Part shown: piece after piece, positions 1-22,251 of the stretch
Numbering within the stretch: the stretch's first letter is position 1
Layout: every line of letters begins with the position of its first letter
Origin: a virus
Reading direction: 5' to 3' (one strand)
Virus record (IMG/VR): IMGVR_UViG_3300037963_003757
Span: 1 to 51,135 of that record
Length of the DNA stretch: 51,135 nucleotides
Notes under the pieces: model-generated
The model's database searches: none
Told to the model about the DNA's origin: nothing
The model's input: only the letters and a program-made list of their open reading frames with translations
Program-made: the position numbers and the translations under genes

Positions 1-3000
1 TGCAGGTAGGGTAGGCGCACCGCTACCTGTTACATACACATACGAACCGGATTGTGCGTCAGTTAGTGTTGTTGTGGTTGTTACTGCTACTACATCAATT
101 TTGTTTGCTTTAGTTACATTTGTTGCTAAATCCTCAAGGGATATTAGGCCCCCTGCGTTATCATACGTTAGAACATAGTTATCTTGACCCGAACCTACTG
201 TTTGGTCTGCATCAAGAGTAAAATTACCTAATGCAAGATTACCTGTTCCTTGTGGCGTTATAAACATATCAAAATTAGCGTTGCCTGTGTCTTGCATTTT
301 AGCCCCGATTTTTCCGGCAGTATAACCTGCGTAATTTATTTCACCTAATCTAAACTCTATCTGACTACCAAATCCTGTTGTTCTTGAACCGCTCGTTATC
401 GCATTAGTGAAATGACCGGCAGTTTGTATTGCGTTAGTAGTAGTTGTTTTGTTAGTGGTTGAAAACGGAACGCTATTATTCGCATTACCCGCTACCTGCA
501 TAGCAAACGAATTAGCAGAAGTAGCATAATTTACTAATACTGACCCTGTGCCGTTTGGGTTAATGTGTATATCAGCATTTGATGTGGTAACAATATCATT
601 ACCGTTCATATCTAAATCACCGCCTAACTGCGGTGTAGTATCAACAACAATGTTCGTTCCACCGTCTGAGCCAGCAGGTCCGGTAGGTCCTGTTGGGCCT
701 GTGGGTCCTGTTGGTCCTGTTGGTCCTGTTGAGCCATCTGAACCATCATCTCCGTCATTTCCGGGCGGTCCAGCAGGGCCGGGTGGTCCTGTGCTTCCCG
801 GTGGTCCGGTCGGGCCTGTAGCACCTTGAGGAATACTAAAGGCGAATACCTTTGCAGTAGCAGGGCCGGAAGCCGTTACACCAATTGGGCCTGTAGTAGC
901 CGTTGGAGTGCCGAATCCAGCAGCCGCACCATCACTACCGTCTGAACCATCGCTACCAGCAGGTCCGGGTGGTCCGGTAGGACCTGTCGGACCGGGAGGT
1001 CCGGCGGGTCCTGTTGCACCTGCCGGAATCGAGAAAGCAAATACCTTCGCTGTGTCTGGACCGGAAGCAGTAACTCCTATCGGCCCTGTGCTTGCGCTCG
1101 GCGTTCCGAAGCCAGCCGCCGCACCATCTGAGCCGTCTGACCCATCTGAACCATCATTTCCGGGCGGACCTGTAGGTCCTGTAGCACCGGCAGGTATAGA
1201 AAACGCAAACACCTTTGCTGTGTCCGGCCCACTTGCCGTTACACCTATTGGTCCTGTGCTTGCTGTTGGGGTTCCTGTTGGGCCTGTAGGGCCGGTTGGT
1301 CCTGTTCCTCCATCTGAACCGTCATCACCTGCTGGTCCTGTAGGTCCGGTAGGGCCGGGTGGTCCGGCAGGTCCGGTTGGCCCTGCTGGTCCGGTAGCAC
1401 CTGCTGGAATAGAAAAGGCAAAGACTTTTGCTGTATCCGGACCACTTGCAGTAACACCGATTGGTCCGGTGCTGGCGGTTGGAGTGCCGAATCCGGCGGC
1501 ACTTCCTGTAGGCCCTGTTGGGCCTGTAGGTCCTGTCGGACCTGTCGAGCCGTCTGAACCGTCATCACCTGCTGGTCCTGTAGGGCCGGGTGGCCCTGCT
1601 GGTCCTGTAGGTCCTGTCGGACCCGTTGCGCCCGCCGGTATTGTAAAAGCAAACACCTTAGCGGTGTCCGGCCCGCTACTTGTTACCCCAATAGGACCTG
1701 TGCTGGCGGTGGGTGTTCCAAACCCTGCGGCTGGTCCTGTCGGCCCTGTTCCTCCATCACTTCCAGCCGGTCCTGTAGGGCCGCTTGGTCCTGTCGGGCC
1801 TGTAGGTCCTGTCGGACCTGTTGGTCCGGCTACTGTTGAATCAGCACCAGCCGGTCCGGTAGGTCCAGCGGGTCCTGTCGGCCCTGTGGGTCCTGTAGGC
1901 CCAGCAGGTCCGGTTGGTCCGGTATCTCCTTGAGCCGCTAAAAGACTCCAATAGGAAGTGTTAGTGGGTAGTATAGAACCGGAAGAGGTATGTGCTTGGA
2001 TACAAATATACGATGATTCTTCAACTGTATAATACACCGCATCATCCACTTGATATGAAGTCGAAGTAGCCCAATTACCCTCCCACACTAAACCTTCCGG
2101 TCCTGTGCTTCCAGCAGGTCCGGTTGGTCCTGTGGGGCCTGTTGCTCCCGTTGAACCCGTAGGTCCAGCAGGTCCGGTCGGTCCGGTCGGTCCTGTAGGT
2201 CCAGCAACCGTTGAATCCGCACCGGTGGGTCCTGTAGGCCCTGTAGGTCCTGTGGGGCCGGTAGGCCCTGTTGCGCCAGCAGGTATGGTAAAAGCAAAAA
2301 CTTTAGATGTATCCGGACCGCTTGCCGTTACCCCTATTGGGCCTGTGGATGCAGTAGGTGTTCCGAACCCTGCGGCCGGACCCGTTGGGCCTGTAGGACC
2401 ATCCGGACCATCCGGACCCGTTGAGCCTGTTGAGCCTGTTGAGCCCGTAGGTCCTGTTGGACCTGTAGGGCCGGTAGGACCTGTAGGGCCTGTTGAGCCG
2501 GTTGCACCGGCTGGAATTGTAAAAGCAAATATCTTAGCAGTATCGGGTCCACTTGATGTAACACCTATCGGGCCTGTGGATGCAGTCGGCGTTCCGAATC
2601 CGGCTGCTGCCCCTGTAGGACCCGTTGGTCCTGTTGAACCATCACTACCGTCTGAACCAGCCGGACCTGTGGGTCCTGTGGGTCCTGTCGGACCGGTAGG
2701 TCCAGCAACAGTTGAGTCCGCCCCCGCAGGTCCTGTCGGACCCGCAGGTCCGGTTGGGCCTGTTGGTCCTGTCGGTCCGGTTGAGCCTGTAGCACCTTGA
2801 GGTATGCTAAATGCGAATACCTTAGCAGTATCCGGACCACTTGCGGTAACTCCCACCGGACCTGTAGTTGCGGTAGGTGTTCCAAAACCAGCAGCCGTTC
2901 CTTGAGGGCCTGTAGGTCCTGTAGGTCCTGTTGGGCCTGTATCCCCCGTAGCACCTTGAGGGATAGAAAAAGCAAATACCTTTGCCGTATCCGGCCCGCT

Positions 3001-4203
3001 TGCTGTAACACCAACCGGTCCGGTTGAAGCAGTAGGCGTTCCAAATCCGGCAGCCGTTCCTTGTGGTCCGGTCGGCCCTGTTGAACCCGTAGGCCCTGTA
3101 GGCCCTGTAGGTCCAGCCGGTCCTGTAGGGCCTGTAGGTCCTGTAGCACCAATATTTCCACTTGGAGTATATTCTGCTACTATGGCCGCATCATTAGAAG
3201 GGATAGAACCGGAAAGCGGGGTTACATCTATTTTAAAGTATCCTGTTGCTTCTGTTACTCCTGTTACTGTAAAAATTATTGGTGCGTCAGTATCCGAATC
3301 TGCTGAATCAAAAACAAGTGTTCCTTTGTCTGTTGAGGTTGAATCATCCCATGTTCTATACCATGCTTGTTGGTCTATTCCTCCTCTTGATTCATCATCA
3401 ATATAGATTTTACTTATTGAGGAAAAAGTGGAATTATTAAATCTAACTTTAGCATCAGTTGGGTCAGCATCAGTAGTTGTAGTGCTAAACACATATTCCG
3501 GACCGATTCTGTTACCCCTTGCGCCTGTAGCCCCTGTGCTTCCGGGTGGTCCTGTAGCCCCTGTGCTTCCTGTAGGTCCGGTCGGCCCTGTAGGTCCGGT
3601 TGGTCCTGTAGGTCCGGTTGGCCCAGCATCTCCCTCATCTCCTTGCGGTCCGGAAGGACCGGTAGGACCTGTAGCCCCTGTCGGACCGGTAGGGCCTGTA
3701 GCACCTGTTGGCCCTGTCGGACCGGCTGGGCCGGTTGGCCCTGTCGGACCTGTTGCGTTTCTCGACAGAACAGAAATCCAAGAATCAGCAGATATACTTT
3801 TGATAATACCGTGTTCATTTTGAACAATTGTAGTTTCACCACTTACTGTTACTCCACTTCCAGCGGCAATAGTAATATCTCCAGCACCCTTATTGTATAG
3901 TTTAATTTCTGTATATCCCACCGGCCAATCAACTGATGATTCGGGGGGAACAGTAATAGTGCAACCGCTTGCATTATTTACAACTAATGTTTTTCCTTCG
4001 TCTTCTCTAACGAGAGTATGTGTTGTTCCGGTAATGTCTTTTGGAGGTCTTACATCTATTGCGTGTCCTCCAAGATTTGTTCCATCACCAACGAAAACCA
4101 TACCACTTGAAGTGTCTCGGAAAAGTTGCGCCCCATCCGGAGTTACACCGATTCTATTTGATTCGGTGTCCGTGAATAGGTTTCGGCTATCACTTATCGG
4201 CAT
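1..4203 (-). CDS. Collagen-like tail fibre protein, partial (3' end off window)
   Basis: An open minus-strand frame starts with ATG at 4203 and runs 1401 codons to the left edge with no stop. The first ~140 residues (starting [20 protein letters not shown]) form a non-repetitive head, perhaps the particle-attachment domain. A long Gly-Pro-Thr/Ala collagen-like region follows (about 3770 down to 660), interrupted by nine copies of a module carrying [18 protein letters not shown]-type sequence. The last ~200 visible residues are Asn/Thr/Gly-rich and typical of fibre shafts. Collagen triplets in phage proteins form trimeric triple helices, so a receptor-binding or side-fibre role is likely. The start follows a GGTGATG stretch. 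It is the most leftward member of the minus-strand structural operon seen here. Plus-strand GPV open frames over it are antisense artefacts of triplet periodicity. The C-terminus is missing. Confidence 0.85.
660..3770 (-). repeat. Collagen-like GPT triplet tracts with nine interspersed modules
   Basis: On the minus strand the DNA is built of 9-nt units of the GGACCTACA type (Gly-Pro-Thr). Between triplet tracts, a module of about 100-110 bp encoding [21 protein letters not shown]-like sequence recurs. The conserved aaagGTNTTTGC-type core is seen near 849, 1039, 1205, 1418, 1645, 2293, 2523, 2810 and 2969. Spacing varies from about 160 to 650 bp because the collagen tracts differ in length. 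Such arrays expand and contract by recombination or slippage, so copy number is probably variable between relatives and assembly could be collapsed here. Confidence 0.85.
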
Positions 4204-13079: not shown

Positions 13080-14273
13080 ATGAGCCGAGTATATGACCTC
13101 ATCAATGAACATCTGAAAGTTGCAAATACTTTTCCAAACTCCGCACAGTTTGCTAAGTATCTGCATGGTATTGACCCTTCGGTTAAATACCCAACATGGA
13201 AGAAGCGTGTTGAAAGGTATCAACATGAGTTTGGTGAAATTGACTTTTTGATAGAAGACCCATACGAAGAATTGCCCGATGAATGGGAAGGCACATGGCG
13301 TTCTCTTGCTATTGAGTTACACGCACGAAGACCCGAAATAACAATGAAAGCATGGGAGATGAGAATACATGATGCTAAGGTTAAGGGCTTAATCAAAAAG
13401 AAGCAACGACCTAACTTCATTACTACTACTTTTGGTGGTGAGCCAACTCAAATAGCCGATGTATGGGATGCTATCGAAACCGCAACAGGCGAAAACATAA
13501 GAAAGGCAGAAAATGCAAGATGGGCTGAAATAACATTTGAGGGTGGTAAGTATCTCGGTATCGCTCTTGCGAGCGACCAACATATCGGAAACAAATATAC
13601 CGACCACGAGCGAATGCGTGAGGATGCTGAATTAGTTGCAAATACTCCTAACTGTTACGCTATACACGCTGGCGACTTCATAGACAACTTTGTAATAGAC
13701 AAACCACGACCGAGTATGAAAGCAACAATTCCACCGAGCGTTCAATGGAAACTTTGCGACCACTACTTATCAATGTTTGAAGATAAGATTCTTGCAGTAG
13801 TTGCTGGTAATCACGACCTATGGACCAGCGGCATGACTGATTATGACCCACTAAGCCGTCAAGTGCTTGATAGAAACATTCTGTATCATCCCCATGAGTT
13901 AAACATTAGAATAATGAACGGTAAGATACCGTATAACTTTGCTATACGACATAAGCGCAGGGGTAACTCAAACATCAATCCTTCTCGTGTAGTTAAGAAG
14001 ATGTGGGAGGATGGCGAGTCCGATTTTGATATAGGAGTAGTAGGTCATCACCATACACCCGTTATTGAAAACTTTACACGGCATGGTCTTGAGAGATGGG
14101 CGGTAAGGCCGGGAAGTTACAAAATCATAGATGGTTATTCCGAAATGATTGGTTTCCAAAGAGAGCGAGCAACCTGCCCCTTAGTCATATTATCCCCCGA
14201 TGCAAGACACATTCAAGTCTTTTCTGATTTGAGAGATGGGTTAGAGACCCTTCGTGTGTTAAATGGTGAGTAG
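13080..14273 (+). CDS. Calcineurin-like metallophosphoesterase with N-terminal helical region
   Basis: 397 aa, ATG at 13080, probably leaderless. Residues 155-330 hold all metallophosphoesterase motifs: SDQH (D166, H168), HAGDFID (~197-202), AGNHD (~242-246) and VVGHHH (~320-325). These bind two metal ions and hydrolyse phosphoesters in DNA, RNA, nucleotides or proteins. Residues 1-120 are helical and charged, perhaps a DNA-binding head with winged-helix-like segments. Similar enzymes often lie beside terminase genes in archaeal viruses and phages. Whether this is a Mre11-like nuclease or a phosphatase cannot be told here. First gene of its operon. Confidence 0.8.
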   Translation: MSRVYDLINEHLKVANTFPNSAQFAKYLHGIDPSVKYPTWKKRVERYQHEFGEIDFLIEDPYEELPDEWEGTWRSLAIELHARRPEITMKAWEMRIHDAKVKGLIKKKQRPNFITTTFGGEPTQIADVWDAIETATGENIRKAENARWAEITFEGGKYLGIALASDQHIGNKYTDHERMREDAELVANTPNCYAIHAGDFIDNFVIDKPRPSMKATIPPSVQWKLCDHYLSMFEDKILAVVAGNHDLWTSGMTDYDPLSRQVLDRNILYHPHELNIRIMNGKIPYNFAIRHKRRGNSNINPSRVVKKMWEDGESDFDIGVVGHHHTPVIENFTRHGLERWAVRPGSYKIIDGYSEMIGFQRERATCPLVILSPDARHIQVFSDLRDGLETLRVLNGE

Positions 14274-14274
14274 T

Positions 14275-14517
14275 ATGGTTGATGACTTTTTAGTTTCTGA
14301 AACATGGACTTCCGATTGCGAAGAGTTTATAGTAGGCACTATGTTAGATGATACAGATAATTTGGTATTCTGTTTAGAAATAGACGATTATGAAATTGCA
14401 AGTATTATTCTCGATAGGTCAAATGTTGAATCTCTCGTTGATTTTCTCGCAGAATGGACCGGATTTCCTATGTTTGTAGGCGGCGACCCATTAGGTGTAA
14501 CAGATGAAAGGAAATGA
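14275..14517 (+). CDS. Small acidic protein upstream of terminase
   Basis: 80 aa from ATG at 14275, chosen because GGTGAGTAGT lies just before it; ATG at 14263 inside the previous gene is the alternative. Strongly acidic (DDF, DCEEF, LDDTDN, EIDDYE) with alternating hydrophobics. No cysteines pairs or TM. It overlaps the terminase start by 14 bp. Position before the large terminase would suit a small terminase partner, but no HTH is visible, so the role is unknown. Confidence 0.5.
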   Translation: MVDDFLVSETWTSDCEEFIVGTMLDDTDNLVFCLEIDDYEIASIILDRSNVESLVDFLAEWTGFPMFVGGDPLGVTDERK

Positions 14518-16009
14518 CTTACTAACTAACTTTAATCTGCAAAGAAGCAGATACGACCATAAACACTTCTATGAATGGTTGGGTTACACATGGGGCAACC
14601 ATATAGGAGAATGGTTTGACCTATTCAATGATAGACAGGGTAAAAGTGTGCATCGTGTTTTATTGATTGCACCACGAGACCATTCCAAATCCACCACGCT
14701 AAGAGTCAAGGCTTTACACAGTCTGCTATTTGAACGATGGCGTAACAAACCTTTTACTACATGGTTATTTTCCGCCAGCAAAGACTTAGCCGCTAATCGT
14801 CTTGAAGAAATCAAAGATGACCTAAAAAGGCATCCGGAGTTATCCCGAATGATTGATGAGTCTAAAAGTAACAAATGGAAGTTGCAACTAACCAATGGTT
14901 CATGGATTAAGGCATCGTCTGTTGGTTCTGCTATTCGTGGAGAACACCCCGCAAGAATCATTCTTGACGATGTGTTAGATGATGGCGGCGATAAAACCGA
15001 TGATGATATTAGACAATGGTTTAGAAAAAAACTAACACCTATGCTTTCCCCCGAAACATCTATTTTTGTTGTTGGAACGCCACTTTCTCTTACAGACTTA
15101 TACCACACAGAAATGCTTGAAAATGAAGCGTGGGCTTCATGGAAGAAAGGAAGCGTGTTAAATTATGATGAATGGGCTAAGAACCCCGAAGAAATAGAGG
15201 CCATAGCGTTATGGCCGGAGTTTAGACCTATTAACTTCTTGCTTGAGCAAAGACAGGCTATGGGTGAATTAGCATTTTCTCAAGAGTATTTGTGTCGTGT
15301 AGTTGATGATGCCTCCGCCGTATTCCCCCAACACCTTACAAGAAAACACTTAGGGATGGAATCTGTATTAGAGAAAGAAAAGTTACATGAAGGCAGATAT
15401 GTTATTGGGTTTGACCCCTCGCATGGTATAGGTAAGGACTATTCTGTTATGGTTGTTATGAGACAAGATAAAGAAGGATTCTTGCATCTTGTTGATATAT
15501 GGCGCAGAAATGATTTTGAGCCGAGCAAACAAGCACATGAAATAATCAGACTTTGCACTACTTACAAAAACCCTATCTTTGCGGCGGAGTCTGCTGGATT
15601 CCAAAGACTCTATCAATCTTTGTTGCAAAACATGGGTGCGAATATTGACTACAGACCCAGCCCCGTATCAAACAGGGTTCTAAAGCAAGGTCTTCTTATG
15701 AGAATGCGGGCATGGTTTGAACAGGGTAAAATAGTATTTCCCTATGGAGACCATGAAACGAGAACAATAGTAAATGAATTGTTGCAAGAATTAGAAACTC
15801 ACGCATGGGATAGCGGAGTAATTGTTGATAAGGGAAGACATAACGATATAGTTATGGCTCTCGCACACGCAATAGACCAATTCCAAAACATCACTTCTTC
15901 CTCTAACACCCCTATGGTATCAGCGGGAGTATCACTTAATAGTTGGAAAGGAAAGGCTACGCCTCGTAATCCAACCACTAATGGTAAGTTTGTATCGTTC
16001 AGACCTTAG
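14504..16009 (+). CDS. terL: Terminase large subunit (DNA-packaging ATPase/nuclease)
   Basis: 501 aa, ATG at 14504. ATPase: Walker A-like APRDHSKST (~56-64), Walker B RIILDD (~151-156) and motif III FVVGTP (~188-193). RNase H-like nuclease: GFDPS (D304), AAESAG (E362) and RHNDIVMALA (D448). All three acidic positions are present. Length is typical. It docks on the portal, cuts concatemeric DNA and pumps it into the procapsid. It ends in a convergent four-base overlap with a minus-strand gene. Codon choice and TTGCAA frequency are lower than in the right-arm replication genes. Confidence 0.93.
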   Translation: MKGNDLLTNFNLQRSRYDHKHFYEWLGYTWGNHIGEWFDLFNDRQGKSVHRVLLIAPRDHSKSTTLRVKALHSLLFERWRNKPFTTWLFSASKDLAANRLEEIKDDLKRHPELSRMIDESKSNKWKLQLTNGSWIKASSVGSAIRGEHPARIILDDVLDDGGDKTDDDIRQWFRKKLTPMLSPETSIFVVGTPLSLTDLYHTEMLENEAWASWKKGSVLNYDEWAKNPEEIEAIALWPEFRPINFLLEQRQAMGELAFSQEYLCRVVDDASAVFPQHLTRKHLGMESVLEKEKLHEGRYVIGFDPSHGIGKDYSVMVVMRQDKEGFLHLVDIWRRNDFEPSKQAHEIIRLCTTYKNPIFAAESAGFQRLYQSLLQNMGANIDYRPSPVSNRVLKQGLLMRMRAWFEQGKIVFPYGDHETRTIVNELLQELETHAWDSGVIVDKGRHNDIVMALAHAIDQFQNITSSSNTPMVSAGVSLNSWKGKATPRNPTTNGKFVSFRP

Positions 16010-16329: not shown

Positions 16330-16371
16330 AAATAAGACTAATTCCTTCTGTTTTATTAAGATTATCTAAGA

Positions 16372-16379
16372 TTTATAAA
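16372..16379 (-). promoter_or_regulatory. Possible TATA box for isolated structural gene
   Basis: TTTATAAA (near-palindromic) lies about 43 bp upstream of the 16329 ATG on the minus strand, with a second AT-rich stretch (CTTAATAAAA) nearer, around 16350. Either could serve. Support is composition and spacing only. Confidence 0.3.
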
Positions 16380-16416
16380 ATATATAGGTTTTTCTATAAA
16401 AAAAATAAAAAATTAC

Positions 16417-16456
16417 GAGAGGGGGTTGGCGTGTAGCATGAGCCGCCAGCCCCTCG
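16417..16456. other. GC-rich stem-loop in intergenic region
   Basis: GGGGTTGGCG (16422-16431) pairs with CGCCAGCCCC (16444-16453), 10 bp including one G-T pair, with a 12-nt loop. Flanking GAG/CTC extends it with a bulge. It is preceded by an A-rich tract and followed by ATTTTT, so it could be a bidirectional terminator for the convergent or divergent units. A similar hairpin at 18372 has the same G-run and the same AAAAGTTGCAAATC neighbour. Confidence 0.5.
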
Positions 16457-16502
16457 ATTTTTGGCCTCGAAAAGTTGCAAATCTCAAAGCCCTAAAAGTT
16501 GC

Positions 16503-16570: not shown

Positions 16571-17059
16571 ATGGTATCCTACCATAGAAACGAGCGTGAT
16601 GACCGAACCGAGAAAGCGGAGAATGGAGACCCCTACGGGGTCTCCCCGTCAGAAAAGGAGGTGTGGATTGAAAGCAATTTTTCTTCCAATATGCACTTCA
16701 CCTTCTATCCAGCGTCAAAAAGACGGCTAACCCTACCTACTGCGGAAGACCTTTACTCCGAAGGAGTATATTCGCCGGAAATCCTATCCATGTCCGCAGT
16801 AATTCCAGCCGATGTTGAGCCGGATGAAATATTGAAAATCTTTGCAGTTGTCCGAAATATCAACGGAGAATATGAAGTCTATTCCACATCAGCAGCCTCG
16901 CAGTCGCTTGATTCTTTGGTCTTAGAAACCGAAATTGAGTTTATGGAATGGTCGGAATTGGATGGTTGGGAACATCACGAAATCAGCGATTCAGCGTCAT
17001 TTTGTGCGGTTGAATTAGAAGCCGAATTAGGGTTACTTTTGATGGAGTTAAATGTCTGA
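16571..17059 (+). CDS. Unrecognised protein, hairpin-rich block gene 1
   Basis: 162 aa from ATG at 16571. No Shine-Dalgarno precedes this ATG, but AAAAGGAGGTG lies inside at 16654-16663, so a later start (GTG 16661 or a non-standard codon) is possible. The protein is acidic, with many Glu/Ser, no cysteine pairs and no TM. The coding DNA carries perfect stem-loops, for example 16625-16645 (9-bp stem, TAC loop) and 16754-16768 (GAA loop). It overlaps the next open frame. Function unknown. Confidence 0.5.
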   Translation: MVSYHRNERDDRTEKAENGDPYGVSPSEKEVWIESNFSSNMHFTFYPASKRRLTLPTAEDLYSEGVYSPEILSMSAVIPADVEPDEILKIFAVVRNINGEYEVYSTSAASQSLDSLVLETEIEFMEWSELDGWEHHEISDSASFCAVELEAELGLLLMELNV

Positions 17060-17105
17060 GATAAGGCCGCAGTCAAGCGATTTTGATTTTTTAGGAGGAA
17101 GAAAA

Positions 17106-17423
17106 ATGGAAGAAAACGAGATAATGGAAGAAATAAGAATGGTGAATGTGTATTTTGTTCTTGAGCAAAGGGTCGGAGACCCTTTCGGAGTTGAACAACA
17201 AAAAGAGGCTTCAAGGCTTCATAGGAAATTACGAAGTAATATCCTAATGCACTTTCCGTTTGTTGATGAATTGAACGATGAAACTACCGAAGGTAGGACT
17301 CACCAAAATAACCGCCGATGTTTAGACATCGGCCGAGATTTTGAAAACATAACGAATCGAAGATTCATAAGGCTACCAAATGGAGCAATTGGCTATCCAC
17401 ACATTCAATCGAAGATTGAATGA
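17106..17423 (+). CDS. Unrecognised protein, hairpin-rich block gene 2
   Basis: 105 aa. The start is set at ATG 17106 by a strong AGGAGGAAG at 17093-17100; the open frame extends back to ATG 17052. The sequence (MEENEIMEEIRMVNVYFVLE..) is mixed alpha/beta with no known motif. The DNA has stem-loops at 17067-independent sites: 17167-17185 (8 bp, GGA loop), 17284-17296, 17314-17333 and 17402-17422 (9 bp, GAA loop, overlapping the stop). Function unknown. Confidence 0.5.
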   Translation: MEENEIMEEIRMVNVYFVLEQRVGDPFGVEQQKEASRLHRKLRSNILMHFPFVDELNDETTEGRTHQNNRRCLDIGRDFENITNRRFIRLPNGAIGYPHIQSKIE

Positions 17424-17447
17424 AATTGAAAAAAAGGAGGACAAAGC

Positions 17448-18305
17448 ATGAAGAAAAATGTGAATGATGATGCAGAAAGAACGACTGCACAGGATGCCGT
17501 AAGGCATCCTGTGTCTGAGGAGGGTGTTCCTGTAAGGAACATCACCTTCGGAGATTTTCTGATGGAGGATGCTGAATCTTTGATTCAGCACTTGCTATCA
17601 GAAGGTGGAGCAACCATCCACCCAATCTCTATGGAGATTCGGAATTGGTCTCAAGGCTACGCAGTAGCCTTGAACACCGGACATGGTGAATATCCTTTTG
17701 ATGGGGCTTCTTCCCTACGGGAAGTTTTCCTATCAAAATTGGATTCAGTTAGAACCGAAGCCGCCGAAAACAACCGATATATCGGTTGCTGGATTGAAGT
17801 TGATGATGAAGACAAAACTACGTTTTGTTTTGAAACATCAGTTTTCGTCAATAACCAAACCCAAGCCATGAGACTCGGCGTAGCCGAATCTCAAAGAGCC
17901 ATTTGGGATTTCAAGGAGTCGAGGGAGATATATCTCCCTACTTCTGAAATCAAGAGGTTGTGGATTATCGAGGTCTTAGAGAATCTAAGCCTTGACTTAG
18001 ACGACATTGACTCCTATTTGGAGTCAGTAAAGGCTAAGGTTCAATTCAAAGAATTGAGGTCAAGGTTCTTTGATGCTCTATATCAAGGAGACATTAAGGA
18101 AAATATCTCCTCCTTAGAGGAGATAGCCGACTCAATGGAGGAAGAATATCTCGTTAAAGATTGGATAGGATTCCAAATGAAGGTTAGTCTTAGGACTATG
18201 CTGGATTTCACCAACTCTTCCGATTCGGATTTTAACTTCGTTAGGAAGAGAATTAACCGAGTTTATCGAGAGACCCAAGAAATCCTCGATTCCGGAAATT
18301 ATTGA
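17448..18305 (+). CDS. Unrecognised 285-aa protein encoded by hairpin-studded DNA
   Basis: ATG at 17448 after AAAAAGGAGGACAAAGC, a strong ribosome-binding site. The N-terminal half is mixed; the C-terminal half (from ~170) is helical and acidic (ENLSLDLDDIDSYLES, SSLEEIADSMEEEY). No TM, cysteine pair or nucleotide motif. At least twelve short inverted repeats fall inside the frame, including 17488-17513 (11-bp stem, GTAA loop), 17651-17673 (10 bp, GCA loop), 17869-17893 and 18104-18125. No TTGCAA was seen in this gene, unlike its neighbours. It could be foreign DNA. Function unknown. Confidence 0.6.
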   Translation: MKKNVNDDAERTTAQDAVRHPVSEEGVPVRNITFGDFLMEDAESLIQHLLSEGGATIHPISMEIRNWSQGYAVALNTGHGEYPFDGASSLREVFLSKLDSVRTEAAENNRYIGCWIEVDDEDKTTFCFETSVFVNNQTQAMRLGVAESQRAIWDFKESREIYLPTSEIKRLWIIEVLENLSLDLDDIDSYLESVKAKVQFKELRSRFFDALYQGDIKENISSLEEIADSMEEEYLVKDWIGFQMKVSLRTMLDFTNSSDSDFNFVRKRINRVYRETQEILDSGNY

Positions 18306-18975
18306 GGATTCAATCGAAGATTGGAAATCGAATAAGGAGGTGAAATCAAGTTAAGAAAAAGTTGCAAATCCGGAGGGGGTCGGCAGTCTCAGACTGTTGG
18401 CCTCCTCCAACTCTTTTTTTGCTTATCAAACAGTAATCGGAGATTAAGTCAAGATAAGGCGAAGAATCTTCTGCAATTTTTTGGGTTCAGCGGTTGGTTA
18501 TGTAATAACCACCAAGCAAAATTGTCCGGCTAATATAGTCAATAGGTATCAACGAGTTGATACCGTAGTCCGGATATTAGGCCGATTCGGTCTTAGAAAA
18601 CCAATCAACTCGCGCACCGGACTTCACGCAGGGAGAGTCATCAGAAGTCTCTTTGCGAAGTCCTTGATATGTGCCTCATATACGCCCCAAAATGACTGCC
18701 GATTTTTCGGAGGACTTCCGCACGAATCCACGCGGATATAAGCAATAAATCGAAGATTTTTGCTTCATATCTTCAATAGGAGATTTGGGGGGCCTCCGTC
18801 TGTGTTGTGGATGGATTGTAAATCCAGCCACAATGTATCCGTATGTGATTTACCAAACAATACTACGGAGTATTGTTTGGAAAATTGCTGATAATTTTTG
18901 GGTATTCGGAAATAACAATTTGCAAGTCAAAACTCAGACGGCGTGTATTATGCGAAGTAAGAGTCTTAAGTAGGT
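18306..18975 (+). ncRNA. Structured non-coding stretch (candidate RNA or cis-element)
   Basis: About 670 bp with no convincing gene. It contains an orphan AAGGAGGTG (~18334) followed by a stop instead of a start, a 17-bp terminator-like hairpin (18372-18408), a GGTATCAA/TTGATACC stem (18545-18564), a two-part stem TTGTGG..GGATT(GTA)AATCC..CCACAA (18805-18833) and a perfect 12-bp stem CCAAACAATACT/AGTATTGTTTGG (18853-18880). Dense pairing without coding suggests a structured RNA transcribed with the operon, or a DNA element. The GGATTGTAAATCC part resembles a tRNA-Tyr anticodon arm, but no T-arm or acceptor stem is present. Confidence 0.45.
18372..18420 (+). terminator. Strong hairpin with T-tract, terminator-like
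   Basis: A 17-bp stem (18372-18388 with 18392-18408, several G-T pairs, TCA loop) is followed by AACTCTTTTTTT. This is the form of an intrinsic terminator, placed ~65 bp after the hairpin-block gene 3. Archaeal termination depends mainly on the T-tract, so the hairpin may have another use. It resembles the 16417 hairpin in its G-run and AAAAGTTGCAAATC neighbour. Confidence 0.6.
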
Positions 18976-20802
18976 GTGCCTCCGGTAAGGGTGATGAGGT
19001 CGAGATTGACTGATTTAGGAGATGCCGGAATAATGAATGCCGTAGGAGTAGTAGTTGCCGCTTTACTACTCTTCGGAGTAGTGGTTAGCGGCTTTAGTGC
19101 GGAGATAAGCACAGTCCTCTCAATTGTAGGACTTGCAACTCTCTCCGTATCAAAGTCGTTTGCGATTACTGATAGCCAAATTAACGAAGTTAGGCGGCGA
19201 ATCAAAAGATTGGGTGGTGCTAATGTCTATCGGGCTAAAGCCCATCAAGATTCAAACTGTCCTTGCTGTGGCGAAGCCATGAACGGAAGAGAAGTTGCAA
19301 ACTTCCTAAGCAACGGCGATGGTGCTATCTTTGGAAACCGATACTCAAAGTGGCTTCACTTTGAATGTGGAATCCGAAATGGCTTCGCCATCGGTGCATA
19401 CAGAAGCCAAAGGGCTTCCAAAACTCCGTCAGAAGAAACAGGAAAGGTCATTCCATACCTTCACCTATACTTCGGATTGCAAGAGTTGCTGGACTTCCTC
19501 AGTTTGGCTGATAGAGCCCATTCATGGAGTCAGCCAGCCTCTTCTGATGCGTTTTACTCGCCGGAAGCAAGGAGGGAAATGCAGTCCTTCAATTCCAACT
19601 CGGTTATCTTAGCACAACCAAAGGTTGAGCCAACTCCTCAACCGAAGGTTGTTGAACCAAAGACCCAACCGAAGGTTGTAAAATCTTCCACCGTAGGTGG
19701 AGCAGAAGGCCAACTTATCGAGTTGATTCAGAATATTGCTGGTAAAGCAATTGATGAGGAGACAGTCCGAAGGATTGCTCACGAAACCGCAAGCGGTGTA
19801 ATCGAACAGTTTAGCAAGTCCTTCGCTCCGGTCAGAACCCTTGAAGTAATCAAGGGTCAGCAAATAGTTGCAAAATCCGGAAGTGTCTATCATCCACATT
19901 TCCCAACTGCGTTGGGGATTATGACTGCTGGACTTGCAACTCGTGGCTTCCCTAATCCGGTTTTCATGGCCGGAGATGCTGGAACGGGCAAGTCTCGTGC
20001 CGCTGAGATGTTCCATGCACTTCTTCAAGAAGTGGGTTTGCTATCTAAAGAACAGGACTTCAAAGAGGTTATCTGCTTCGCAGATATGGAGAAAGGCGAC
20101 TTGATTGGTCGGGTCAAATACTCCCTCACATCAGACAACGAATGGAATATGAGCGGTCTGACTACTGTTCTAATCAATGGTGGCCTTGCCTTTATTGATG
20201 AATTGGATAAAGCCGACCCAGCAGTTGCAACTTTGCTAAACGGAGTTTTAGCATCGAGACAACTCGTGAATCCGGTTACAGGCGAGGTCATTCCGGTTAG
20301 CAAGAATTGCTATATCGTGGCGGCTGGTAATACTACCGGATTTACAAAATCCCCTCGATTTGCGGCGGCTCAGAAGCAAGACGCTTCGCTTCTTGACCGA
20401 TTCGCTGGAGGCTTTGTCTCATTCGGTCATTCTAACCGAATCATGGCTCACATCTGCGGTCTTTCCAATGCTGGAAAGGTTGAGGCGGAAGAGAGCCCAG
20501 CGGGTGAGCCAGCAACTCCACAGGAAGTCTTCGACTCGTTCAATGAGTTGAAAGATTTGGCCGACTCGACCCGAATGGGTATTCCGATGAGTTATAGAGC
20601 ATTAGAAGTCGGTATGAGCCTTGCTCATTCCGGTTGGACAATGCCTTCAATCGTTGCTCGCTGGATTGTTCCTTTCAACGAGGAAGCGAAGAGGCAAGTT
20701 GTTGCAAATCGTATCGGTGGTCTCAACTCATGGGAGGATTCGGCTTCGCTGATTCCAGCGGGTGTTGAACCAATCACTACACCAATTGGAGGCGCAGTCT
20801 GA
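18976..20802 (+). CDS. Membrane-anchored MoxR-type AAA+ ATPase
   Basis: 608 aa from GTG at 18976; ATG 18994 (residue 7) is an equal candidate. A TM segment lies at ~21-41 with a second hydrophobic run at ~45-58. A zinc-finger-like CPCC plus HFEC group follows (~95-131), then a Pro/Lys linker with repeated QPKV (~213-235). The AAA+ core is C-terminal: Walker A GDAGTGKS (~333-340), Walker B LAFIDELD (~404-411), sensor-like AAGNTTGF (~449-456) and LLDRFAG. MoxR ATPases remodel partner proteins, usually with a VWA protein encoded next door, as here. The DNA carries CTACTC(TTCG)GAGTAG and other stem-loops. Viral MoxR/VWA pairs have been seen but their role is unclear. Confidence 0.8.
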   Translation: MPPVRVMRSRLTDLGDAGIMNAVGVVVAALLLFGVVVSGFSAEISTVLSIVGLATLSVSKSFAITDSQINEVRRRIKRLGGANVYRAKAHQDSNCPCCGEAMNGREVANFLSNGDGAIFGNRYSKWLHFECGIRNGFAIGAYRSQRASKTPSEETGKVIPYLHLYFGLQELLDFLSLADRAHSWSQPASSDAFYSPEARREMQSFNSNSVILAQPKVEPTPQPKVVEPKTQPKVVKSSTVGGAEGQLIELIQNIAGKAIDEETVRRIAHETASGVIEQFSKSFAPVRTLEVIKGQQIVAKSGSVYHPHFPTALGIMTAGLATRGFPNPVFMAGDAGTGKSRAAEMFHALLQEVGLLSKEQDFKEVICFADMEKGDLIGRVKYSLTSDNEWNMSGLTTVLINGGLAFIDELDKADPAVATLLNGVLASRQLVNPVTGEVIPVSKNCYIVAAGNTTGFTKSPRFAAAQKQDASLLDRFAGGFVSFGHSNRIMAHICGLSNAGKVEAEESPAGEPATPQEVFDSFNELKDLADSTRMGIPMSYRALEVGMSLAHSGWTMPSIVARWIVPFNEEAKRQVVANRIGGLNSWEDSASLIPAGVEPITTPIGGAV

Positions 20803-20819
20803 GTCGTAAGACTCGGACT
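20796..20819 (+). other. Stem-loop overlapping the MoxR stop codon
   Basis: AGTCTGAGTC pairs with GACTCGGACT around a GTAA loop (10 bp, one G-T). It spans the stop of the ATPase gene and ends ~17 bp before the AGGAGGTGA that serves the VWA-like gene. It could tune read-through or translation between the two partners. Confidence 0.5.
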
Positions 20820-20852
20820 CGCCCCCTCAATTTACAGGAGGTGAGACGAGAA

Positions 20853-21791
20853 ATGCTGAACAATGATTCAACCGATGAAAACGGAGTCAGAACCGGATGG
20901 TTCAACCACAAATCCAAAACGGATTTCATCTATGCTCCAAGCCATTCAGCCATGATTCGTTCCATAGAATATGGAGAGAAGCATGAGAATATCCAAAACA
21001 TCACGAATATGTCCTCTTCCGGCACAGACCGTAGGTTCTATGGAAGAGTTGCAAATGCTAAAGTCGTCAAAGACGAAGGCCGAGATGGAGTCGGACACGA
21101 GAGAGATGCAAAGGGCGTGGAGAAGCACGAAGGAAAGATGCTCGATGCTCTTTCACAATTTCATTCTGAAATTATGGGAAGCATTCGATGCTGGACTGAT
21201 ACTCCACGAGTTGTTCATGGAATCTCAATGGAACGCCTATTCAATGGCGAGAATCCATTTAGAAGCAAGAAGCGGGTTCGCATGAAGCAAGAAGTTGTAG
21301 CCCTCTTCGTGCCGACTAACTCTCACGCTGAAATCAAACCGGAAATCAATTCGATTCGTGCAAGTGCGGCTTTAGCCGCCGCTGAAATCCTTGAGGAGCA
21401 AGGATACATGGTCGAGATATATGCTTTAGCATATTCAACAAATGTTGCAAGAAACGGCAACGGTGCAGTCGCAGTAACTCGCATCAAAGCGGCGGATGAG
21501 GTTTTCAACCTATATCAAGCGGCTTCGGCCATGTCCTCATGGGTTTGGAGGAATGTTACCTTCTCCGCCCGTTCCTTAGCGGGAAGAAGGGCATCGAATG
21601 TAGCATCCACAGGTTCGGGAACATCACAAAATCCGGATAAGGAGTTTTGTGAGAAACTTGCAACTATTCTCGGTTGTGATGCTTTCAGCGCAGTCAATCA
21701 CATACCACGAAACAACGATGTTCGGACTCAAGTGGATAAGGCCGTTGATGCAGTAGTAACTGCAATCGAGGAGGTGATGGAACAATGTTAG
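20853..21791 (+). CDS. VWA-like partner protein (DUF7192-like)
   Basis: 312 aa. Start at ATG 20853, chosen by AGGAGGTGA at 20836-20844; the GTG at 20841 lies within that site. Residues ~130-220 resemble a VWA-type Rossmann core: VVALFVPTNSHAEIKPEIN, then RASAALAAAEILEEQGYMVEIYAL, where a strand, a helix and a second strand follow in order. The usual DxSxS metal site appears replaced (PTNSH), so it may be a degenerate VWA. It follows the MoxR ATPase with a 50-bp gap, the classic pairing. It probably binds a target that the ATPase remodels. Confidence 0.6.
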   Translation: MLNNDSTDENGVRTGWFNHKSKTDFIYAPSHSAMIRSIEYGEKHENIQNITNMSSSGTDRRFYGRVANAKVVKDEGRDGVGHERDAKGVEKHEGKMLDALSQFHSEIMGSIRCWTDTPRVVHGISMERLFNGENPFRSKKRVRMKQEVVALFVPTNSHAEIKPEINSIRASAALAAAEILEEQGYMVEIYALAYSTNVARNGNGAVAVTRIKAADEVFNLYQAASAMSSWVWRNVTFSARSLAGRRASNVASTGSGTSQNPDKEFCEKLATILGCDAFSAVNHIPRNNDVRTQVDKAVDAVVTAIEEVMEQC

Positions 21792-22066
21792 GCGAAGACT
21801 TGCAAGAGTTTGTAACTCTCCCGACAGAAGCGGTGGTTGATGTTATCTCCGCCCTTCTGTCCGGAGATGAGGGCGAGCGTGAGGTTCATGCAAACGCTCT
21901 CCTCGCCTGTCTCCTTTACAACGAAGGAGTATCAGACAGACAGACAGTCGTAAGGCTGACCGAAGAAATCCTACACATGAGAGACGCGGCCATTCGTGGC
22001 GAGTCAATTGATGAGGCGGATATTGCAAATATCTCCCGCATAATCAAGGGAGGTGAGGAGGAATGA
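21785..22066 (+). CDS. Small acidic helical protein
   Basis: 93 aa, ATG at 21785 overlapping the previous stop. Helical and acidic (EDLQEFVTLPTEAVVDVISALL; ending IKGGEEE). No motif recognised. It begins the run of small overlapping accessory genes. The next gene starts on its stop (GGAATGA). Confidence 0.5.
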   Translation: MLGEDLQEFVTLPTEAVVDVISALLSGDEGEREVHANALLACLLYNEGVSDRQTVVRLTEEILHMRDAAIRGESIDEADIANISRIIKGGEEE

Positions 22067-22251
22067 GCGAGGAAATCACTTGCGGTTGTTGCAAGTCTTT
22101 CCCGAAGGCGTGTAGCGAATGCGGAGCGAGACCCGCTCCCGTTGCTGGGCCGGATGCGGTTCATTCCGCCCTCAACCGCTGGCGTCTTCACGGACTTCCG
22201 AGCAAGAGCGAGTATCTATGCGACCGTTGCTTCACGCTTCGGTTGGTTTAG
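22063..22251 (+). CDS. Zinc-ribbon miniprotein
   Basis: 62 aa, ATG at 22063 after GGTGAGGAGGA. Contains CGCC, CSEC and a C-terminal CDRC, enough for two zinc sites. Basic middle region. Such small ribbons bind DNA, RNA or proteins. No specific function is visible. Confidence 0.55.
   Translation: MSEEITCGCCKSFPKACSECGARPAPVAGPDAVHSALNRWRLHGLPSKSEYLCDRCFTLRLV

Follow-up and report, generated by a model that had tools for sequence, protein, structure and literature searches.

A polarised field of short DNA hairpins beside the terminase gene of an uncultured tailed virus

RNA viruses can carry hairpin-rich coding RNA, with many local hairpins that show covariation. In DNA, the closest described systems are of three kinds. 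The mitochondria of Nematomorpha contain many perfect inverted repeats inside translated genes, at a cost in coding freedom (PMC6649704); phage N4 uses short early hairpin promoters, whose C(GNA)G loop is required for extrusion at physiological supercoiling (PMC4496689); and template-switch (quasipalindrome) mutation marks its sites by homogenising the arms of a hairpin and inverting its spacer (PMC8604942, PMC8794818). Here we describe a multi-kilobase carpet of perfect mini-hairpins, dense at one end and thinning toward the other, in a 51,135-bp IMG/VR contig of an uncultured tailed virus (record IMGVR_UViG_3300037963_003757, an incomplete contig analysed over its full length and referred to hereafter as the window). 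The carpet begins 3′ of terL, the gene for the terminase large subunit (14504–16009, + strand), and runs through coding and non-coding DNA alike.

A hairpin field anchored downstream of terL

Perfect hairpins were defined as stems of at least 6 bp with loops of 3–5 nucleotides (nt), and were counted against dinucleotide shuffles and against synonymous-codon shuffles that keep both the protein and its codon usage. Between 16.5 and 22.5 kb the window holds 47 such hairpins, compared with ~4.6 in dinucleotide shuffles (an approximately ten-fold excess), while the remaining genome stays near expectation. Successive 1.5-kb blocks of this region contain 17, 11, 12, and 7 hairpins (1.1, 1.4, 1.2, and 0.9 in the dinucleotide shuffles), and stems of at least 8 bp number 7 and 4 in the first two blocks, against ~0.1. 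Synonymous-codon shuffling, performed gene by gene, abolishes the excess; under the same shuffles terL (3 hairpins vs 1.4) and PolB, for the DNA polymerase (2 vs 1.3), are ordinary. The original prediction had listed individual stem-loops over 16625–21440 and held that neighboring regions lack them: the listed hairpins are present as described, and the excess stands under both kinds of shuffle. The location it gave was also right, but the block does not end where it proposed; the carpet extends slightly further right, from ~16.57 to 22.14 kb (16571–22140, ~47 perfect hairpins with stems of 6–12 bp and loops of 3–5 nt), has a sharp left edge, and spans six genes rather than five, together with the non-coding stretch 18306–18975.

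All six genes lie on the + strand and all exceed expectation. The first is a 162-aa accessory open reading frame (ORF) of no known family (16571–17059; 4 hairpins vs 0.5 expected), with homologs in carpet-bearing relatives only; it is followed by a 123-aa ORF (17052–17423; 3 vs 0.25) that carries the carpet and is missing from the corresponding place in relatives L008, L009, and L010. A 285-aa accessory ORF (17448–18305; 13 vs 1.5) forms the densest part of the carpet in the window. Beyond the non-coding stretch, which includes a 12-bp stem at 18853–18880, lie an AAA_5/CobS-like ATPase (18976–20802; 14 vs 2.3), a DUF7192/phrog_1909 protein (20841–21791; 6 vs 1.1), and a 93-aa ORF at the right edge (21785–22066; 2 vs 0.2). 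Gaps between hairpins have no fixed period (coefficient of variation 0.9–1.5). A dispersed repeat family (REP/MITE-like) was considered and rejected, as the stem sequences all differ and are shared by no two copies.

The left edge of the carpet coincides with a boundary element (16360–16465, + strand), an AT tract with the TATA-like sequence TTTATAAAATATAT followed by GAGGGGGTTGGCG-(stem-loop)-ATTTTTGGC. The same arrangement, an AT tract containing a TATA-like stretch together with GGTTGGCG-(stem-loop)-TTTTTGGC, is found 3′ of terL in carpet-bearing and carpet-less relatives. From this element hairpin density falls to background on the terL side (terL itself is at background), and away from terL it decays over distances that vary among members from 6 to ~30 kb, the carpet of the window stopping ~6 kb from terL. 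In three relatives (G001–G003) the excess declines along all of the DNA-metabolism half, and the structural half of the genome has close to the expected number of hairpins; for G001, stems of at least 7 bp run, observed/expected, 27/0.9, 37/0.1, 12/0.5, 8/0.8, 11/0.5, 9/1.0 and on, whereas G009 and G012, which have no carpet, match expectation along their whole length. We rejected the idea of fixed genome ends at the element, where contig ends show no convincing pile-up by eye; short terminal direct repeats occur in two contigs, located away from it.

Relatives were gathered by terL-based scans of IMG/VR, with terL as anchor gene, and a clear carpet is present in 37 loci, 22 of them non-redundant. 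The densest (L118, L119, and L024) reach ~18–19 hairpins of at least 7 bp per kb, whether the DNA is coding or not; family-wide, stems measure 6–17 bp and the carpet takes up as much as a third of the sequence. The trait follows ancestry, in that the carpet label requires 5 changes on the terL tree vs 29 in shuffles, and a sister terL clade (L099, L102–L109, L111–L114, and others) has the boundary element without a carpet. The neighboring genes of one carpet-less locus in which they were checked (L103) are the same as in carpet-bearing relatives, and a comparison of near-complete carpet-bearing and carpet-less contigs showed that strict association with the trait is confined to accessory genes within the carpet, no core gene having it. 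The first 50 kb of each of phages N4 and T4 and viruses HSTV-2 and HJTV-2 contain 0.5–0.9 hairpins of at least 7 bp per kb, with no such field.

The window has one other hairpin bump, a weak one at 1–4 kb. It lies in a collagen-like repeat gene, is made up of 6-bp stems of the GGTCC/GGACC type, and bears no relation to the carpet; collagen-like repeat ORFs (GPVGPV…) occupy 900–3800, at a GC fraction of ~0.6.

Loop composition and strand symmetry

Of 43 hairpins between 16.56 and 21.44 kb, 25 have triloops, and 19 of these 25 loops read GNA or TNC. The claim that the loops are mostly C(GNA)G was somewhat overstated, since 10 of the 25 triloops are C(GNA)G or its complement with a C-G closing pair; the enrichment itself is real, such loops accounting for 0 of 19 triloops outside. 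C(GNA)G is only one of several favored loops, with C(TTTA)G/C(TAAA)G also very common across the family.

To judge strand preference we used a family-wide set of 694 hairpins with stems of at least 7 bp, from the 22 non-redundant carpets (89 kb). Loops and their complements occur there at near parity: 68 hairpins have C(GNA)G and 71 have C(TNC)G, and among these C(GAA)G counts 35 and C(TTC)G 32, C(GTA)G 21 and C(TAC)G 22, and C(GGA)G 11 and C(TCC)G 14. C(TTTA)G and C(TAAA)G number 32 and 31. In ribosomal RNA hairpins, stable tetraloops are 8–66 times commoner than their complements (PMC8794818). Stems with a single mismatch in the 22 carpets show no G.T preference (G.T 63 vs A.C 57), and the enrichment is limited to loops of 3–5 nt, those of at least 6 nt being at background. 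Parity between loops and complements, the lack of a G.U preference, and the restricted loop size together lead us to conclude that structure matters, or arises, on DNA and not on the sense mRNA, in agreement with the DNA-level framing first proposed for the block.

The 5′ arm is C/T-rich and G-poor near the loop (22 carpets): its closing base is C in 54% of cases and G in 8%, compared with 21% and 18% for chance hairpins at other loci.

Hairpin turnover and the origin of the field

Comparison of aligned relatives indicates that shape is kept and sequence is not, as had been suggested from the differing stems of the window. In pairs of 85–93% identity, 130 stem pairs have changed on both sides and still pair, vs 48 one-sided breaks, and in pairs of 98–99.9% identity the corresponding figures are 7 and 2 (these counts share ancestry across relatives and are not independent). 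The hairpin at 16625–16645 exemplifies such covariation at matching places: it reads GGAGACCCC-TAC-GGGGTCTCC in the window, GAAGACCCC-TAC-GGGGTCTTC in L010, and CATTGACCC-TATA-GGGTCAATG in L009. In the non-coding leaders, five pairs summed (three of them not independent) have 61 of 65 hairpin positions in common with changed stem sequences. In most pairs the linkers have diverged further than the stems (9.5 vs 6.5%, 15.5 vs 7.7%), and between the window and L009, at 68% identity, many hairpin positions turn over and density is kept.

Arms change in concert, several bases at a time, between viruses that are ~99% identical. L115 and L116 (98.6%) carry CTAT-GTGGAC-ATCGAAGAT-GTCCAC-ATAG and CTAT-ACCCCCT-ATCGAAGAT-AGGGGGT-ATAG, respectively, and two neighboring base pairs inside a gene have compensated changes between L023 and L024. 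Loops also flip: a loop is exactly inverted between L096 and L097, the loop of the hairpin at 18545–18564 (GGTATCAA-CGAG-TTGATACC in the window) is CTCG in L009, and 13 exact inversions between unchanged arms were listed, some recurring in several related pairs. At 20988, comparison of L010 with the window is suggestive of a stem that may have originated in a single event. Such concerted arm changes and inverted loops are the traces that a DNA polymerase leaves when it switches template at hairpins.

The abrupt left edge beside terL and the fading along the early genes point to a process or function at the DNA level that has yet to be described. In the reading that we favor, and consider reasonably probable from these sequence comparisons, the DNA mini-hairpins are potential mini-cruciforms and form a polarised field, which begins at the conserved element 3′ of terL, is made and repaired by template switching, and is probably selected. 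DNA downstream of the element would repeatedly become single-stranded or negatively supercoiled, whether as replication starts, during early transcription, or at a processed end beside the terminase; compact hairpins could extrude in the DNA so exposed, and a polymerase could switch strand on them. Strand switching would turn imperfect stems into perfect ones, copy changes from one arm to the other, and flip loops, and selection for the capacity to form hairpins would probably hold them in place. A related account, which we entertain tentatively, puts selection foremost: the terminase-proximal early region would be a landscape of densely set, compact, easily extruded hairpins in which the DNA itself must fold, perhaps to protect or organize it while single-stranded or supercoiled, during infection, when replication starts, or during packaging, with template switching renewing the hairpins so that shape is inherited as sequence diversifies.

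Several observations weigh against the favored reading. Template switching ordinarily acts genome-wide and outside the field these genomes do not depart from expectation, so that this reading needs selection or some local cause in addition. In L092/L093 the stems diverge more than the linkers (17 vs 6%). In a smaller set of carpets G.T numbered 47 and A.C 29 (p = 0.05), and C(TTCG)G (9:2) and G(CTTG)C (6:1) favor the sense strand; the loop bias is possibly a minor RNA component, and with the mismatch excess it hints at some RNA-level contribution.

The best-surviving rival, which we nonetheless think rather unlikely, is pure mutational bias, in which a local template-switch hotspot perfects quasi-palindromes and the hairpins are tolerated by-products without function. 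Template-switching scars had been among the roles suggested at the outset, and the homogenized arms, multi-base swaps, and loop flips do fit this mechanism; the fast stems of L092/L093 and the turnover of positions at 68% identity likewise suit a field shaped by mutation. Scars alone, however, leave the confinement and polarity of the carpet unexplained, and a by-product would sit poorly with leader positions that are almost all retained, stems slower than linkers in most pairs, loops restricted to 3–5 nt, a burden placed on protein-coding genes, and the involvement of one genome segment only.

Structure at the mRNA level is less probable again. A hairpin-rich early transcript, started from the TATA-like element, might gain protection from ribonucleases or RNA-targeting defence, or control of translation; the promoter-like element at the left edge, the fall in density along early co-oriented genes, the sense-strand excess of C(UUCG)G and G(CUUG)C, and the compensatory changes would all fit. 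Against such a transcript stand G.U mismatches that do not exceed A.C, the equality of GNA with TNC and of TTTA with TAAA, the failure of loops longer than 5 nt to be favored, and the tolerance of loop inversions.

We regard as very improbable an array of single-strand DNA hairpin promoters of the kind used by the N4 virion RNA polymerase. The hairpins recall N4 in their short stems and early region (PMC4496689) and in the C(GNA)G loop, which N4-type promoters carry on a 5–7-bp stem and which makes up 10 of the 25 triloops here, but there are dozens of hairpins here vs three in N4, half have other loops and lie inside genes, and N4 is itself without a carpet in its first 50 kb. Pfam and PHROGs detected no virion RNA polymerase among the large ORFs tested, on a window contig that is incomplete, and the largest ORF of G001 (2364 aa) matches no family in either. 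Intrinsic terminators or attenuators are no better placed: T runs do follow some hairpins (e.g., L024 6449–6490), but a T run after the hairpin (42 of 676) is matched by an A run before it (37 of 676), and most hairpins are inside genes. A sequencing, amplification, or assembly artefact, or base composition, can be practically dismissed, for although several relatives' contigs stop shortly after terL, as expected if hairpins hinder sequencing, matching hairpins recur in independent metagenomes (L007, L008, L009, and L010, the carpets of L007 and L008 being 99.96% identical), ORFs remain open across them, and shuffles that keep composition or codons remove the signal.

Genomic setting and relation to known systems

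Directly upstream of terL is a calcineurin-like phosphoesterase (13080–14273; PHROG “DNA repair exonuclease”), which adjoins terL in carpet-bearing relatives and in the carpet-less G009–G013. The + half of the window encodes a DNA polymerase, a clamp loader, and a PD-(D/E)XK nuclease; G001, a longer relative, has a tape-measure-like tail gene in its opposite-strand half. The window also carries a virus-encoded pyrimidine-dimer DNA glycosylase (PF03013, 27479–28129). No tRNA was detected in the window, and Rfam covariance models gave zero matches there. PolB is nearest to the family-B polymerases of haloarchaeal tailed viruses (~24% identity), and this, with the TATA-like box, prompts the guess, and only a guess, of an archaeal host; GTDB genomes contained no relative of the ATPase or of terL, and no host genome was found among them.

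The accessory proteins of the densest carpets belong to fast-changing, apparently mosaic families with short shared blocks (e.g., FDGDALRCFYEAW and DHVSIFEYFMEGQD), and were found in carpet-bearing relatives only (L024 4205–5578, L095 10619–12142, L115 10794–11846, L118, L129, and others). Structure models of carpet accessory proteins were too poor for use (pLDDT 48 and 59). Across the whole window, mainly at 4–50 kb, the 6-bp palindrome TTGCAA occurs 185 times vs 15 expected from base composition, other 6-bp palindromes being mostly scarce; TTGCAA is likewise in excess in G005 (10.5×), and the carpet-less G009, G010, G012, and G013 have TGCGCA instead, at 15–19 times over expectation.

If the favored reading is right, the inherited trait of this genome feature is folding capacity rather than sequence, over kilobases of coding and non-coding DNA, and the feature is anchored beside a packaging gene and declines with distance from it. 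Its polarity would make an event of replication, entry, or packaging accessible to study in viruses still beyond cultivation, and these fast-evolving viruses would be a natural system in which to catch template-switch mutations and loop inversions and to separate mutation from selection on DNA hairpins. There is also a warning here, in that covariation, usually taken as proof of RNA structure, can arise at the DNA level.

What is new is the hairpin field, the mutational mechanism of template switching being already known; the open-access literature (subscription literature being outside the search) yielded no multi-kilobase polarised hairpin field in a virus. The hairpin-rich coding RNA of RNA viruses differs from the carpet, which is strand-symmetric and lacks a G.U preference, both pointing to DNA, and is carried by a double-stranded DNA virus. 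Part of the field resembles the N4 hairpin, which is short, carries a C(GNA)G loop, and can extrude at physiological supercoiling (PMC4496689), but N4 has three sites served by a virion RNA polymerase where the virus has dozens, with diverse loops and no such polymerase detected. Like the Nematomorpha mitochondrial genes (PMC6649704), those of the window contain perfect inverted repeats beyond codon-shuffle expectation, a likeness that does not imply common descent; the arms in those animal mitochondria reach 284 bp, whereas the virus has stems of 6–17 bp and 3–5-nt loops, dense and polarised. The field shares with template-switch mutation (PMC8604942, PMC8794818) homogenized arms, several bases changed together, and inverted spacers, also within genes; known cases of such mutation are scattered single events, and the virus presents a polarised field extending over kilobases.

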